Shown here in pieces: positions 1 to 29,163 of a stretch of DNA of 64,000 nucleotides. A model generated the notes under the pieces. The model was not told where the DNA came from. It saw only the letters and a list, made by a program, of their open reading frames with translations, and did not search any database. The stretch is from NCBI RefSeq assembly GCF_008124625.1, contig NZ_VNHM01000012.1, positions 1-64,000 of the forward strand, read 5' to 3'. A program made the translations under genes and the position numbers. The DNA is from Desulfallas thermosapovorans DSM 6562. GTDB lineage: Bacteria; Bacillota; Desulfotomaculia; Desulfotomaculales; Desulfallaceae. Position 1 is the stretch's first letter. The number at the start of each line of letters is the position of its first letter.

Positions 1-104
1 CTAGGTTTAACAAAAAGTAAGCTTCTCGTTAAACCCCGTTCGACTTGCATGTGTTAAGCACGCCGCCAGCGTTCGTCCTGAGCCAGGATCAAACTCTCCA
101 TAAA
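1..104 (-). rRNA. 16S ribosomal RNA, 5' end (partial)
   Basis: The reverse complement carries the universal 16S start (AGAGTTTGATCCTGGCTCAG), followed by the conserved GACGAACGCTGGCGGCGTGC and CATGCAAGTCGAACG stretches. Only the first 100 or so bases lie in the window; the gene runs off the left edge. The V1 helix (helix 6) at 3-32 is long: GTTTAAC and GTTAAAC arms enclose an AT-rich loop. The mature 5' end is estimated from alignment to other 16S genes and may be off by a few bases. Confidence 0.97.
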
Positions 105-23964: not shown

Positions 23965-26451
23965 TTATTTAACCACAATATTGACCAGCTTACCGGGCAC
24001 CGGTATCACCTTAACCACCTTTTTGTCACCGATGAGTTCCCTTACTTTTTCCTGCTGCATAACCAGTTCCCGCATAGCATCGGGCTTAATGTCCGCAGGT
24101 ACCAACAGTCGTTCCCGAACCTTACCGTTAATTTGTATCACAATGGTGATTTCATCTTCAACAATGGCCTCGGGATCGTACCGGGGCCAGGGCTGGGCAT
24201 GAATACTGCCTTCATGACCGGTTAAATTCCACAACTCCTCGGTGATGTGGGGGGCAAAGGGAGCCAAGAGCAGCAGTAGGGCGTCCACCGCCTCGCGCAG
24301 TACCCCGTCATTGCGGTCGCATTCGGGTAAATCCCGGTACTGGTACATGGCGTTCACCAGTTCCATGATGGCACTGACCGCTGTATTAAAATTAAACCGG
24401 TTGCCCACATCTTCAGTTACCTTTTTAATGGCCAGGTGGGTCACCCGGCGCATATCCTTATTAATCCCCACCAAATTGCTGGCCCGGTCCGGGGGCGCAG
24501 CGGAGGTAAGTGTATCGCCCAGCGGCGCCACCAGTCGCCATACCCGGTTAAGGAAGCGGTAGCAACCCTCCACTCCCTGGTCGCTCCACTCCAGATCCCG
24601 CTCGGGGGGTGAAGCAAACAGGATAAACAGCCGGGCGGTATCAGCACCGTAAGTGGCCACGATATCCTCGGGACTTACCACATTACCCTTGGATTTGCTC
24701 ATCTTGGCCCCGTCTTTAAGCACCATGCCCTGGGTAAGCAGGTTGGTAAAGGGCTCGTCATTATCAATCAATTTCATGTCGTACAGCACCTTGGTAAAGA
24801 ACCTACTGTACAACAGATGTAGGATAGCGTGTTCAACCCCACCGATGTACTGATCCACCGGCAGCCAGTACCTTACCTTGCCGGGATCCCAAACATTGTC
24901 CTCGTCCCTGGGACTGGTATAACGATAGTAATACCAGGAAGAACACATGAAGGTGTCCATGGTGTCGGTTTCCCGTCGCGCCGGGGCACCACAGGCGGGA
25001 CAGGTGGTATTAACAAAACCGGCATGGTCCTCCAGCGGAGAACGACCGGTGGGTTTAAAGGCCACGTCCATGGGCAAGAGCACCGGTAAATCCTTTTCAG
25101 GCACCGGTACCACCCCGCACTTGTCACAATAAATAATGGGAATGGGGGCGCCCCAGTAGCGCTGCCGGGAGATAAGCCAATCCCGCAGGCGGTAGTTGAC
25201 CCGGCCGGCACCCACTCCTTTTTCCTGCAGGTATTTAATTACATCAGTAATACCCTGCCGGTTCGGGGTACCGTTAAAGGGTCCGGAATTAACCATTAAT
25301 CCTTCGCCGGCGTAAGCCTCGGACATAGTGGCGGGATCCAGGGTAACCCCTTCAGGCTCTATAACCACCCGCACGGGCAGGTTATACTTGCGAGCAAATT
25401 CAAAGTCCCGCTGGTCATGGGCCGGGACCCCCATCACGGCGCCGGTACCGTACTCCAACAGCACGTAATTGGCCACCAGTATGGGCACCTTTTCACCATT
25501 TACCGGGTTAATGCAATATGCACCGGTGAGCAAACCTATTTTTTCAGCCTCGGTGGAGGTACGGGCCAGTTCGCTTAAATTGCGCACCTCTTGCACAAAT
25601 TCCCTGATTTCACCGGCCTGGGGTTTACCCTCGATCAATTTTTCCACCAGGGGGTGCTCCGGTGCCAGTACCATATAGGTTACACCGTAAATAGTATCCG
25701 GGCGGGTGGTGAATACCGTGATGGTTTCATCCATGCCTTCAATTTGGAAGGTAATCTCGGCCCCTTCACTGCGCCCGATCCAGTTTTCCTGCATAATTTT
25801 AACTTTGTCAGGCCAACCATCCAGTTTATCGAGATCGGCCAGCAGCCGGTCAGCATACTGGGTAATTTTGAAAAACCACTGCTCCAATTCCCTTTTTTCC
25901 ACAACACTGGAGCAACGCTCGCAGGAACCTTCTTTTACCTGCTCGTTGGCCAACACGGTGGCGCAAGAAGGACACCAGTTTACAGCAGATTTCTTTTTAT
26001 AGGCCAGTCCCTGGTGATAAAGCTGTAAGAACAACCACTGGGTCCATTTATAATAACCGGGGTGGCAAGTGGCCACCTCCCGGTTCCAGTCATAGCTGAT
26101 GCCCAATTGCTTAAGCTGGGCCCGCATGGAGTCAATGTTATCCATGGTCCACCGGGCGGGGTGCAGTGCGCCGTGTTTTATGGCCGCGTTTTCAGCCGGC
26201 AGGCCAAAGGCATCCCAACCCATGGGGTGCAGCACATTAAATCCCTGCATTGTTTTAAACCGGGCCACCACATCGCCTATGGAATAGTTGCGCACGTGGC
26301 CCATGTGCAGTTTACCCGAAGGGTAAGGGAACATTTCCAAGCAATAATATTTAGGGCGATCGCTAAAGTCGGGCACGGCATACATATCCTGCTCCGCCCA
26401 TTTTTGCTGCCACCTGGTTTCTATTTCCCTGAATTCATAGCGGTCCTTCAT
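23965..26451 (-). CDS. leuS: leucyl-tRNA synthetase
   Basis: Charges tRNA-Leu; 828 residues, class I synthetase. HIGH motif in [24 protein letters not shown] in [15 protein letters not shown], an editing domain ([20 protein letters not shown]), a four-Cys zinc module ([10 protein letters not shown] ... CPACGAP) and the C-terminal anticodon-binding helices. The frame is open 60 bases further up, but GGGAGG before the ATG at 26451 and the family start [11 protein letters not shown] set the start. No T-box lies directly upstream; a leucine T-box is found one gene away, in front of the acyl-CoA ligase. Confidence 0.97.
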
Positions 26452-26530
26452 TGCTTCCTCCCGTACGTTATAACTGTTAGTAATATAACAACAATATTTC
26501 AATATTATCACACTATGTTCTTTAATGAAA

Positions 26531-26716: not shown

Positions 26717-28381
26717 CTACAGTGGATTTGCCGTATTATCATAGCGGGATAATTCCTTGATACCCATTTCCCGCAGCTTGAACTTTTGCACTTTGCCGTT
26801 GGCCGTAGTGGGGTAGCCATCAACAAAATGAATATATGCCGGTATTTTATAACGGGCGATTTTGCCGGAACAATATTTTTTAATATCCTCGACGCTGACC
26901 CGGGAGCCTTCTTTTAACTGGATAAAGGCCATAACTTCTTCCCCGTACTTCTCACTGGGTACGCCCACTACCTGCACATCTTTAACCTGCGGGTGGGTAT
27001 ATAAAAACTCCTCAATCTCCCGGGGGTAAACATTTTCACCACCCCGAATAATCATGTCTTTAATCCGGCCGGTTATTCTAAGATAACCGTTTTCATCCAT
27101 AATGCCCAGATCACCGGTATGCAGCCACCCCTCTTGATCAATGGCAGCAGCCGTGGCTTCAGGCATTTTATAATAACCTTTCATAACGTTATATCCACGG
27201 GCGCATACTTCACCCTGGACACCGGCGGGCACCTCTTCGCCGTTTTCCGGGTCAACGATCTTAACTTCCACCCCTTCCAGCGCTTTTCCTACTGTGGCCA
27301 CCCTCAGTTCCAGCGGGTCGCCGGTGCGGGTCATGGTAATGCCGGGTGACGCTTCGGTTTGTCCGTAAGTAATGACTATTTCCCGCATACCCATTTTTTC
27401 CACCACAGCCTTCATCACTTCAATTGGGCAGGGTGATCCGGCCATGATACCGGTGCGCAGGGAGGATGTATCAAAGGGTTGTTTTTCCAGCACGTCCAAC
27501 TCGGTAATAAACATGGTGGGCACTCCATGCAGCGCAGTACACCGCTCCTTCTCCACCGCTTCCAACACCTTCACCGGGTTGAATGATTCCAGCATTACCA
27601 TGGTGGCGGCATAGGAAACACAGGTCAGCGTGCCCAGAACACAGCCGAAACAATGGAACATGGGCACAGGTATACAAAGGCGGTCATCGGGACCCAGGTT
27701 CATGCACTTGCCTACACTTAAAGCGTTACCCACCAGGTTGTTGTGGGTTAGCATAACTCCTTTGGGAAAACCGGTGGTTCCGGAAGTATACTGCATATTG
27801 ATTACATCACCAGGCTGCAGGGACGATTGCCTGGCTCCCAGTTCTTCATCGGTGATTTCATCGCCCATGGCCAATACATCCCGCCAGTTAAAAACACCCG
27901 GAAGACTCTCTTCACCTATATAGACCAGGTTCTTCAGTATCGGCAGTCTTTTGCAATTCAACCGCCCGGGCATGTTGTCCTGCAGTTCCGGACACAATTC
28001 AAATACCATGTCCACATAGTTCGAATCTTTTATACCGCTGGAAAAAATCAAAGTGGTGGAATCGGACTGGCGGAGTAAGTATTCCAGCTCGAAAACTTTG
28101 TAATTGGTATTTACCGACGTCAATACCGCTCCCATTTTGGCACAGGCAAATTGCAATATGACCCATTCCGGTATATTGGGGGCCAGCAGAGCAATATGTT
28201 CGCCCCTTCTAATACCCAGGGCCATTAATGATTTGGCCACCCGGTTGCATTGCTGCTGAAACTGCCGGTATGTATATCTTAGATCCCTGTCCGGGTAAAC
28301 CAGTGCTTCATTATGGGGGAACCTTCCTGCTGACAGATCCAGCAACTCGCCCATGGTAATTTGACTCTGTAAATTTTTCAT
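26717..28381 (-). CDS. AMP-forming acyl-CoA synthetase (fatty-acyl-CoA ligase type)
   Basis: 554 residues of the ANL superfamily; activates a carboxylic acid with ATP to an acyl-adenylate and then the CoA thioester. Motifs: MQYTSGTTGFPKGVMLTHNN (P-loop), YGQTEASPG, GWLHTGDLGIMDENGYLRI and GRIKDMIIRGGENVYPREIE, with the catalytic Lys near the end (TANGKVQKFKLREMG). It is of the medium/long-chain FadD-like type, but acid specificity cannot be read. The gene sits directly behind a T-box reading a Leu codon, which suggests a link with leucine supply or branched-chain acids. The ATG follows GGGGTGA. Confidence 0.92.
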   Translation of the reverse strand: MKNLQSQITMGELLDLSAGRFPHNEALVYPDRDLRYTYRQFQQQCNRVAKSLMALGIRRGEHIALLAPNIPEWVILQFACAKMGAVLTSVNTNYKVFELEYLLRQSDSTTLIFSSGIKDSNYVDMVFELCPELQDNMPGRLNCKRLPILKNLVYIGEESLPGVFNWRDVLAMGDEITDEELGARQSSLQPGDVINMQYTSGTTGFPKGVMLTHNNLVGNALSVGKCMNLGPDDRLCIPVPMFHCFGCVLGTLTCVSYAATMVMLESFNPVKVLEAVEKERCTALHGVPTMFITELDVLEKQPFDTSSLRTGIMAGSPCPIEVMKAVVEKMGMREIVITYGQTEASPGITMTRTGDPLELRVATVGKALEGVEVKIVDPENGEEVPAGVQGEVCARGYNVMKGYYKMPEATAAAIDQEGWLHTGDLGIMDENGYLRITGRIKDMIIRGGENVYPREIEEFLYTHPQVKDVQVVGVPSEKYGEEVMAFIQLKEGSRVSVEDIKKYCSGKIARYKIPAYIHFVDGYPTTANGKVQKFKLREMGIKELSRYDNTANPL

Positions 28382-28430
28382 GTTATCACCCCTGATTCTT
28401 TGTCTGATTAACGTATTAAAGCTGAAAATT

Positions 28431-28737
28431 TAAAATAAAAACCTCTCATCCCGGTAAGGGACGAGAGGTATTTCTCGCGGTACCACCCTAATTGATAAAG
28501 CCGTTGGTGGAGATGAGGGGAATCGAACCCCTGACCTCCTGAATGCCATTCAGGCGCTCTCCCATCTGAGCTACATCCCCATGACTTTAACCACTTGGTG
28601 TGTTAACGGTACTTGCCGTCCCGGTGTACTTTTTTCCACCGGGCAACTCCGGGGCGAGTTCATTCACCTTACCCACCGCCTCGCACCAACCGGCGGCTCT
28701 CTGGGGGTAAACAGCGATATTACTACTCCCCTTCACA
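28431..28737 (-). promoter_or_regulatory. T-box leader, Leu (CUC) specifier, with tRNA-Ala inside
   Basis: A tRNA-sensing riboswitch read on the minus strand. In order: AGTAG start of stem I; AG-bulge CAGAGAGCCGCC and GGTTGGTGCGA (distal loops); specifier region GTGAATGAACTCGCCCC with codon CTC = Leu at 28656-28658; F-box-like ACCGTTAAC (28602-28610); a complete tRNA-Ala gene (28505-28580); T-box GGGTGGTACCGCG (28476-28488); terminator with a 12-pair stem (28441-28452 / 28458-28469) and TTTTATTTTA. Uncharged tRNA-Leu should favour antitermination into the acyl-CoA ligase and perhaps leuS. Confidence 0.9.
28505..28580 (-). tRNA. tRNA-Ala (anticodon GGC), CCA encoded
   Basis: A full cloverleaf: acceptor GGGGATG / CATCTCC with the G3:U70 pair that marks tRNA-Ala, D-stem GCTC/GAGC, anticodon stem CCTGA/TCAGG with loop ATGGCAT (anticodon at 28545-28547), T-arm AGGGG-TTCGATT-CCCCT, discriminator A and genomic CCA. 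Nothing is broken, so it should be functional. It lies inside the T-box leader and shares its transcript. Confidence 0.97.
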
Positions 28738-28763
28738 GTTTTTAGCATATTGAACTGACCATA

Positions 28764-28792
28764 ATTATAAAATAATAAATATTGAAAGTCAA
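28764..28792 (-). promoter_or_regulatory. promoter of the T-box/tRNA-Ala transcript
   Basis: Minus strand TTGACT (28787-28792) and TATAAT (28764-28769), 17-bp spacer, about 27 bp before the T-box stem I. It should drive the leader, the tRNA and the downstream genes. Confidence 0.85.
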
Positions 28793-28803
28793 CGCCAAAT
28801 TAG

Positions 28804-29163
28804 TTACATACTTAACGGGGATTTTACTACCTGGGCGTCTCCCCACAAGTGCTCCAGATTGTAAAAACGGCGTTGTTCCTCCTGGAAAATATGGATTACC
28901 ACCGAACCGTAGTCCAGTAAAACCCACTGCGCCGTCCTGAACCCTTCCCTGCGTGGTTGACCAACGCTGTGCTGCTGTAATTTATCTTCAATTGCATCGG
29001 CAATGGCCCGGGCATGTACCGGCGATCTACTACTGCAAATAACAAAGTACTCCGCCACCACGGAAACCCCACCGATGTTTAACACGGTGATATCCATAGC
29101 CCTTTTACCTTCCGCCGCTTCTACAGCCAACTGCACAAGAACACCAGGTTCAATTATCAACAA
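28804..29163 (-). CDS. rsfS: ribosome silencing factor RsfS/RsfA
   Basis: 119 residues. RsfS binds ribosomal protein L14 and blocks subunit joining when nutrients are short. The family core is plain: ITVLNIGGVSVVAEYFVICS, HARAIADAIEDKL, QWVLLDYGSVVIHIFQEEQR and FYNLEHLWGDA. It starts with TTG after AGGGGGATT. It lies downstream of yqeK, as in many Firmicutes. Confidence 0.95.
   Translation of the reverse strand: MLIIEPGVLVQLAVEAAEGKRAMDITVLNIGGVSVVAEYFVICSSRSPVHARAIADAIEDKLQQHSVGQPRREGFRTAQWVLLDYGSVVIHIFQEEQRRFYNLEHLWGDAQVVKSPLSM

Follow-up and report, generated by a model that had tools for sequence, protein, structure and literature searches.

The locus lies on the minus strand of the window, i.e., the whole stretch of 64,000 nucleotides that was analyzed, in the order yqeK, rsfS, promoter, T-box leader, a gene of the acyl-CoA ligase family and leuS (Table 1). 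A sigma-70-type promoter precedes the leader, and no other minus-strand promoter-like site was found in 28381-28860. The Rfam T-box model RF00230 matches the leader with an E-value of 2.6e-31, and the covariance model runs from stem I through the antiterminator, which makes the leader a member of this family. No tandem arrangement was detected: the leader gives a single RF00230 match and contains no second stem I or antiterminator. The specifier CTC agrees both with the genome's tRNA-Leu(GAG) and with the downstream leuS. The TGGT bulge of the antiterminator (GGGTGGTACCGCG, starting at 28488) is complementary to a tRNA 3' ACCA, and the tRNA-Leu(GAG) of this genome ends in ACCA and fits it. Terminator and antiterminator are mutually exclusive, with the strand CCTCTCGTCCC common to both.

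Table 1. Features of the T-box leader and its neighboring genes (positions in the window)
Feature	Position	Strand	Basis and remarks
rsfS, upstream neighbor outside the switch	28804..29163	-	TIGR00090, 112 bits (cut-off 56.9)
Sigma-70-type promoter of the leader, TTGACT-17-TATAAT	28764..28792	-	11/12 consensus matches
Whole T-box leader	28454..28745	-	RF00230, 140.6 bits (gathering 93), model 1-219/219
T-box stem I, ends approximate	28646..28739	-	RF00230 alignment
Specifier CTC (Leu)	28656..28658	-	sequence
Stem II	28620..28643	-	RF00230 alignment
Stem IIA/B region with the F-box CCGTTA	28604..28619	-	RF00230 alignment
Purine string AAGTG (RRRxG motif 5' of stem III)	28592..28596	-	sequence; motif as given in the available text of PMC7583486
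Stem III 5' strand GTTAAAGTC	28583..28591	-	comparative pairing; folding of the local piece only
tRNA-Ala(GGC), 76 nt, in the stem III loop	28505..28580	-	ARAGORN, RF00005
Stem III 3' strand GGCTTTATC	28494..28502	-	comparative pairing; folding of the local piece only
AA 3' of stem III	28492..28493	-	sequence; motif as given in the available text of PMC7583486
Antiterminator, with T-box bulge TGGT at 28485-28482	28458..28488	-	RF00230
Intrinsic terminator, 12 pairs and T tail	28441..28469	-	overlaps the 3' strand of the antiterminator
Gene of the AMP-dependent acyl-CoA ligase family, first after the T-box	26717..28381	-	NF009233 best, 788.8 bits, below the cut-off of 832
leuS, leucine--tRNA ligase	23965..26511	-	TIGR00396, 1140.5 bits (cut-off 548.4); start codon as in the ORF list, the actual start may be internal

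Between stem I and the antiterminator lies a tRNA-Ala(GGC) gene, found by ARAGORN and scoring 67.5 bits with RF00005, with a cloverleaf, a GGC anticodon, G3:U70 and an encoded CCA. G3:U70 is the identity pair of tRNA-Ala. No GGC tRNA other than this nested one was found in the genome (51 tRNA hits), and ARAGORN finds no tRNA within about 1.5 kb on either side of the other 15 T-box loci of the same genome. The original prediction, which placed a promoter, a stem I with CTC, an intact tRNA-Ala(GGC) with G3:U70 and CCA, an antiterminator and a terminator on one strand, is thereby confirmed by the sequence, RF00230 and ARAGORN, and its T-box indeed spans the whole model from stem I to the antiterminator. 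A pattern of a tRNA T-arm plus an antiterminator occurs once in the window versus in none of 100 shuffles.

In this genome and in several relatives, the ligase gene separates leuS from the leucine T-box. At the edge of the window (1-104, minus strand), a 16S rRNA gene starts.

Stem III and the tRNA in its loop

In the available text of PMC7583486 and PMC7778990, stem III and its flanks (5'-RRRxG-stem III-AA-3') are described as part of the aminoacylation sensor. The window has both flanks, as the T-box motif requires (AAGTG, AA), in the order AAGTG, GTTAAAGTC, AT, the tRNA, AC, GGCTTTATC, AA, TTA and GGGTGG. The stem itself is formed by GUUAAAGUC (28591-28583), which pairs with GGCUUUAUC (28502-28494) with one U.U mismatch, and RF00230 assigns 82 nt to its loop. 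The tRNA had initially been thought to replace the linker or stem III; this is ruled out by the RF00230 alignment and the pairing of the flanks, as stem III is retained and the tRNA sits in its loop.

Comparison across a sample of 169 nested loci, 147 of them unique by their flanks, bears on the same point. Anchors for stem III were picked blind to pairing and are present in 116 of the 147 loci, the 31 loci without anchors being dropped. Over the seven positions that follow the anchors, 79.4% are standard pairs, compared with a mean of 59.1% after swapping of the 3' strands (63.2% for the largest of 500 swaps) and 28-45% when the strands are slid by one or two positions; as the loci are related and not independent, these figures are not probabilities. 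Pair types switch on both strands, i.e., by compensatory changes: position 2 is GC in 48 loci, AT in 32, TG in 4 and TA in 3, position 3 is TA in 58, CG in 30 and GC in 5, and position 7 is GC in 28, TA in 22, AT in 17 and CG in 6. The mean duplex energy of the flanks is -10.5 versus -6.7 with swapped strands, in a set whose anchors were chosen by best pairing and in which the window's stem III scores one pair because of the U.U at its second pair.

Thermodynamic folding could not serve to prove the nested cloverleaf within the leader. ViennaRNA misses the cloverleaf there (acceptor pairs at most 0.08) and gives the window's stem III at most 0.06 in the full leader, whereas in a piece of 121-148 nt only, most pairs of stem III reach about 0.98. 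The nested tRNA does form a cloverleaf when folded alone, and a free tRNA-Ala(TGC) does not; since this free tRNA is misfolded as well, the energy model is a poor judge of the cloverleaf. The case for stem III is thus made by comparison of sequences and not by energy. Taken with the complete T-box, it indicates that the tRNA almost certainly caps stem III of a genuine leucine T-box.

Spread of the nested layout and its shared features

The original prediction was based on one locus, but the layout is conserved in related genomes and widespread. Among 60 genomes, 30 have the nested layout, i.e., the window's own and 29 of 59 relatives, 27 of them having been identified by a search with the leader DNA and inspection of the locus and three through the contexts of other GGC tRNAs. 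In 14 of the 60, tRNA-Ala(GGC) immediately precedes leuS and Rfam gives no T-box in the piece, in one the tRNA follows rsfS with neither T-box nor leuS in the piece, in nine it is located elsewhere, away from leuS within the piece examined, and two have a T-box with a decayed tRNA. No GGC arm was found in the remaining four, two of which are less than 90% complete. As with the window's own genome, the GGC anticodon arm is single in 28 of the 30 nested genomes at zero mismatches (one mismatch in G032), while G015 and G022 each carry one nested and one free GGC copy. That a tRNA or mobile element was recently inserted at this one locus is ruled out, as half of these genomes and distant lineages share the layout.

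A phylum-wide search with a pattern for any tRNA T-arm, followed by an antiterminator after 16-46 nt, gave matches in 82 of 398 genomes and 52 of 266 genera. ARAGORN called a tRNA before the antiterminator in 28 of 30 loci fetched from this search, and one printed row clearly held no tRNA. The reversed pattern gave none among the matches listed for the same phylum; together with the 0 of 100 shuffles, this control excludes a chance origin of the layout. Over the named genome collection, the any-tRNA pattern yields at least 120 stretches. Among the matches listed, 114 of 120 have a tRNA that ends 8-33 nt before the antiterminator according to ARAGORN, and of these, 113 are tRNA-Ala(GGC) and one is tRNA-Ala(CGC). 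Because the pattern would accept most tRNAs, the restriction to alanine is a result and not an input. As for the other six stretches listed, L062 and L070 are truncated by the end of the locus a short way upstream of the pattern, and no tRNA is seen in L053, L056, L114 and L155.

By the titles of their submitters, which for assembled bins can err, the 114 stretches among the matches listed are distributed over Bacillota (n = 59), Chloroflexota (n = 32), Thermomicrobiota (n = 8), Armatimonadota (n = 3), Atribacterota (n = 3), Coprothermobacterota (n = 2), Actinomycetota (n = 2), Caldisericota, Pseudomonadota and Thermodesulfobacteriota (n = 1 each), with two unplaced. A record labelled Desulfovibrio, for instance, is placed inside Bacillota in a tree of the leucyl-tRNA synthetase (LeuRS). 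In 19 distant nested loci, RF00230 reaches its gathering score in five and matches the other 14 at an E-value of 0.01 or better, below that score.

The tRNA itself is constant where its identity is concerned. Both G3:U70 and the GGC anticodon occur in 146 of the 147 unique nested tRNAs. An encoded CCA was scored in 118 and is absent as scored in 29. The seven bases that follow the acceptor stem are TAGCTCA in 65 loci, TGGCGCA in 59, TAGCGCA in 20 and another sequence in three, so that the body of the tRNA varies by lineage with the anticodon, G3:U70 and place remaining the same. Since both main body types are present at homologous leaders within the window's family, the body has been altered or exchanged while identity and place were retained.

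The other parts of the element recur as well. A T-run follows the antiterminator in 136 of the 147 unique loci. A specifier could be tested in the 143 unique loci whose upstream part measures 200 nt or more, and 140 of these read Leu CTC. A strict CTC pattern matches 126 of them (mean of 6.6 and maximum of 15 in 100 shuffles), and CTC is read by eye in 14 of the 17 that it misses, i.e., in 12 leaders with a short linker and in L067 and L071. The three leaders without a CTC reading are L153, which may read TTA, L128 and L225. A loose specifier pattern matches 142 of the 143 with a chance mean of 57 of 143 by shuffling and was not used for this count; its specifiers in L128 and L225 are spurious, as no stem I is visible there. 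Downstream, leuS is seen in 139 of the 169 loci (125 within 700 nt, nine further away and five behind a ligase gene). In another 24, the ligase gene comes next and the piece ends before leuS could appear, and six have neither gene, four of these having at most 212 nt downstream. Upstream, rsfS is found in 82 of the 169 loci.

The 12 short-linker leaders (L057, L099, L113, L116, L147, L164, L234 and L239-L243) have a specifier that ends 35-42 nt before the tRNA. From their sequences, stem II and stem IIA/B appear to be absent, with the tRNA-capped stem III directly after stem I.

Natural variants of the leader

Relatives of the window's genome show that the nested tRNA can be lost. In four of them (L277-L280), the T-box before leuS or the ligase gene has a short stem III and no tRNA, e.g., GATAAG-ATTA-CTTATC, and both plain forms that were scanned (L277 and L279) score 148.6 bits with RF00230. 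The leuS T-box of L281 (119.7 bits) has a long insert in stem III, in which ARAGORN calls no tRNA. G011 and G013 have kept the T-box (105.8 and 105.9 bits) with a tRNA-Ala in the loop of stem III that is shortened and apparently dead (L270 and L271). In G013, which is rated 100% complete, no tRNA-Ala(GGC) is present among 45 tRNA hits (150 of 208 first-look candidates scored) and the anticodon-arm pattern finds no GGC either; presumably, another Ala tRNA reads those codons. As G013 has a decayed tRNA only, the nested tRNA is not indispensable everywhere.

Such remnants speak for the idea that the nested tRNA-Ala is a mere structural cap or spacer of stem III that is unused as a tRNA. The stem III clamp is conserved, both remnant genomes keep the T-box around a truncated and apparently unusable tRNA, and G013 is evidently alive without any other GGC tRNA. 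Nonetheless, we regard this explanation as very improbable in view of the single GGC arm in nearly all nested genomes, including that of the window, in which no other GGC tRNA was found, and of the conservation of G3:U70 and GGC; moreover, the short plain stem III of the relatives indicates that no cap is needed.

In other relatives, it is the T-box that is missing. At L246-L255, L259, L262, L265 and L268, tRNA-Ala(GGC) is the immediate upstream neighbor of leuS and frequently follows rsfS, and no T-box is found by Rfam at an E-value of 0.01 in any of 15 T-box-less tRNA-Ala loci. By eye, several of these loci keep a T-box-like terminator hairpin between the tRNA and leuS, and some have promoter-like hexamers immediately before the tRNA. 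L128, an Anaerolineales record, consists of a promoter-like hexamer, a tRNA-Ala(CGC), an antiterminator, a terminator, a branched-chain-aminotransferase-like gene and leuS; a stem I is not visible in it, and Rfam gives no T-box at an E-value of 0.01. In L133, the end of a second tRNA-Ala is seen immediately before stem I, so L128 may be the product of a deletion between two tRNA-Ala copies. In L225, tRNA-Ala(GGC) and an antiterminator precede leuS; a promoter-like site is located a short distance upstream, and a stem I is not visible. Possibly, the T-box has been lost around a retained tRNA in some relatives.

The promoter-like sites before the tRNA in these relatives, L128 and L225 would also fit two overlapping but independent transcription units, with the tRNA made from its own promoter and the antiterminator belonging to another transcript. 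For the window this is barely credible, as its sole minus-strand promoter-like site precedes stem I and the pairing of stem III across the tRNA requires one RNA.

The LeuRS tree of the nested loci clusters by phylum, with 12 label changes versus a mean of 37.6 after shuffling; built with a quick method from 90 of the 114 nested loci and from nested sequences only, it shows clustering and not the order of gains and losses. Such clustering agrees with an old trait that has undergone a degree of exchange or mislabelling. It also fits a neutral, frozen layout, in which the T-box grew (or was lost) around a tRNA in an old tRNA-Ala/leuS neighborhood and the nesting brings no advantage, and the 14 of 60 genomes with tRNA-Ala(GGC) directly before leuS and no T-box favor the same explanation. 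However, the clamp on both sides of the tRNA has been kept with compensatory changes, the order of stem I, tRNA and antiterminator has been kept across deep lineages, and the losses in relatives show that nesting can be undone, so that we consider neutrality unlikely.

Proposed working and relation to known systems

Given a complete T-box whose specifier, bulge and target gene are consistent with one another, the leader is most naturally read as a normal leucine switch that acts during transcription. It is probably a transcriptional leucine T-box with a stem III that is capped by a functional tRNA-Ala(GGC) gene, and with a dual output. The following working is what we infer from its anatomy. 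Transcription would begin at the single promoter before stem I, stem I would read tRNA-Leu(GAG) via CUC, and the discriminator, composed of the base of stem III and the antiterminator, would check the 3' end of tRNA-Leu as the RNA polymerase proceeds. If tRNA-Leu is charged, the RNA would stop at the terminator; if it is uncharged, read-through into the ligase gene and leuS would follow. Because the tRNA precedes the terminator, every transcript at the decision point already contains it, and RNase P and 3' processing would excise tRNA-Ala either from the terminated leader or from the read-through mRNA. The supply of tRNA-Ala would then follow the strength of the leader, with terminated leaders as the everyday source of tRNA-Ala(GGC), while leuS would be expressed upon leucine starvation only. 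One promoter would plausibly make the tRNA always and the enzyme on demand, as the original prediction had proposed for the tRNA and the downstream genes.

Stem III would keep the 5' leader and 3' trailer of the tRNA paired and may hold back RNase P until the decision has been made. According to the available text of PMC9433436, RNase P is hindered when leader-trailer pairing lengthens the acceptor stem, the pairing there reaching N-1/N-2 and RCCA. Since the pairing in the window starts two bases further out than the one described there, such a delay is only a suggestion. Cutting at the tRNA in read-through RNA would release the mRNA from its sensor. Stabilizing leader cleavage is known for thrS of Bacillus subtilis.

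Termination could also be subject to feedback, either from cleavage by RNase P or from the nested tRNA-Ala and its state, so that more than leucine is read. The nested 3' ACCA might compete for the TGGT bulge, or cleavage might part stem I from the antiterminator and force termination. The bulge suits the ACCA of tRNA-Leu as well as that of tRNA-Ala, a cut at either end of the nested tRNA would part the sensor from the antiterminator, and the partner is almost invariably Ala(GGC) (113 of the 114 tRNA-bearing stretches among the matches listed), even though the pattern was open to any tRNA. Yet, the available text of PMC7583486 describes transcriptional T-boxes as binding and deciding during transcription, which leaves little time for such a second input, and judging by the remnant and plain forms, the switch can apparently do without the tRNA. 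A two-input switch is therefore quite unlikely. Rather unlikely, too, is the broader reading that an ancient and widespread riboswitch class doubles as a tRNA gene, with stem III of the leuS T-box being a pre-tRNA-Ala and antitermination competing with tRNA maturation on one RNA; the supply of one tRNA would then be coupled to the leucine state of the cell, a two-input logic that goes beyond co-production.

Apart from the leucine switch with dual output that we favor, the element can be set against several known systems. It shares with the leuS-type transcriptional T-boxes of RF00230 a stem I with Leu CUC, stem II, the F-box region, a stem III with RRRxG...AA, the TGGN bulge, the antiterminator/terminator and a downstream leuS, and differs from them in a stem III loop that holds a complete tRNA-Ala gene. 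Insertions with unknown structure and function are reported for every T-box domain, and insertions also for stem III of translational T-boxes, in the available text of PMC7583486, and neither there nor for tandem T-boxes is the insert identified as a tRNA gene, whereas here it is a tRNA that recurs across phyla. The available portions of PMC2494555, PMC7583486, PMC7778990, PMC3766115, PMC4919913 and PMC10482949 do not mention a tRNA gene inside a T-box. Among the open-literature papers listed, no description of one was found, in agreement with the original prediction that no T-box of such a layout had been described; earlier notice in the surveys of 2008 (RNA) and 2009 (MMBR) is possible.

Outside the T-boxes, tRNA genes are cotranscribed with mRNA in, e.g., metY-nusA and thrU-tufB of Escherichia coli, where the tRNA is not known to lie inside a regulatory switch. 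As in those operons, one transcript would yield a tRNA and a coding mRNA, but here the tRNA is inside the switch. The spacer tRNAs of rRNA operons are flanked by leader-trailer helices. They resemble the nested tRNA in that a tRNA-Ala within a larger structured RNA is released by processing, and differ in that no ligand-dependent decision is known for them.

The nested leader is a new variant of the T-box riboswitch that is real, widespread and structurally coherent. T-boxes bind tRNAs, and here one contains a tRNA gene too. Many Bacillota and Chloroflexota share this nesting, as do records whose labels name several other phyla. Its occurrence suggests that a whole tRNA on the tip is tolerated by stem III, which the available text of PMC7583486 treats as a component of the aminoacylation sensor. 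The ordering of co-transcriptional switching, termination and RNase P processing on one RNA becomes directly testable. Plain, capped, decayed and T-box-less natural variants are available for comparison. Surveys of T-boxes in which leaders are folded or trimmed may miss one half of the element, as may surveys of tRNAs that are blind to context.

Some further variation is seen in the genes downstream of the leader. In L132 (tested) and, by eye, in L075, L092 and L138, the nested T-box is separated from leuS by a branched-chain aminotransferase gene. In a plasmid search with 315 matching records, the five listed match the query over its ligase-gene part only. By eye, an ORF that resembles a group II intron reverse transcriptase is located downstream of the nested T-box of L230 where leuS is expected, and L229 shows the flank of a similar frame at the same place.
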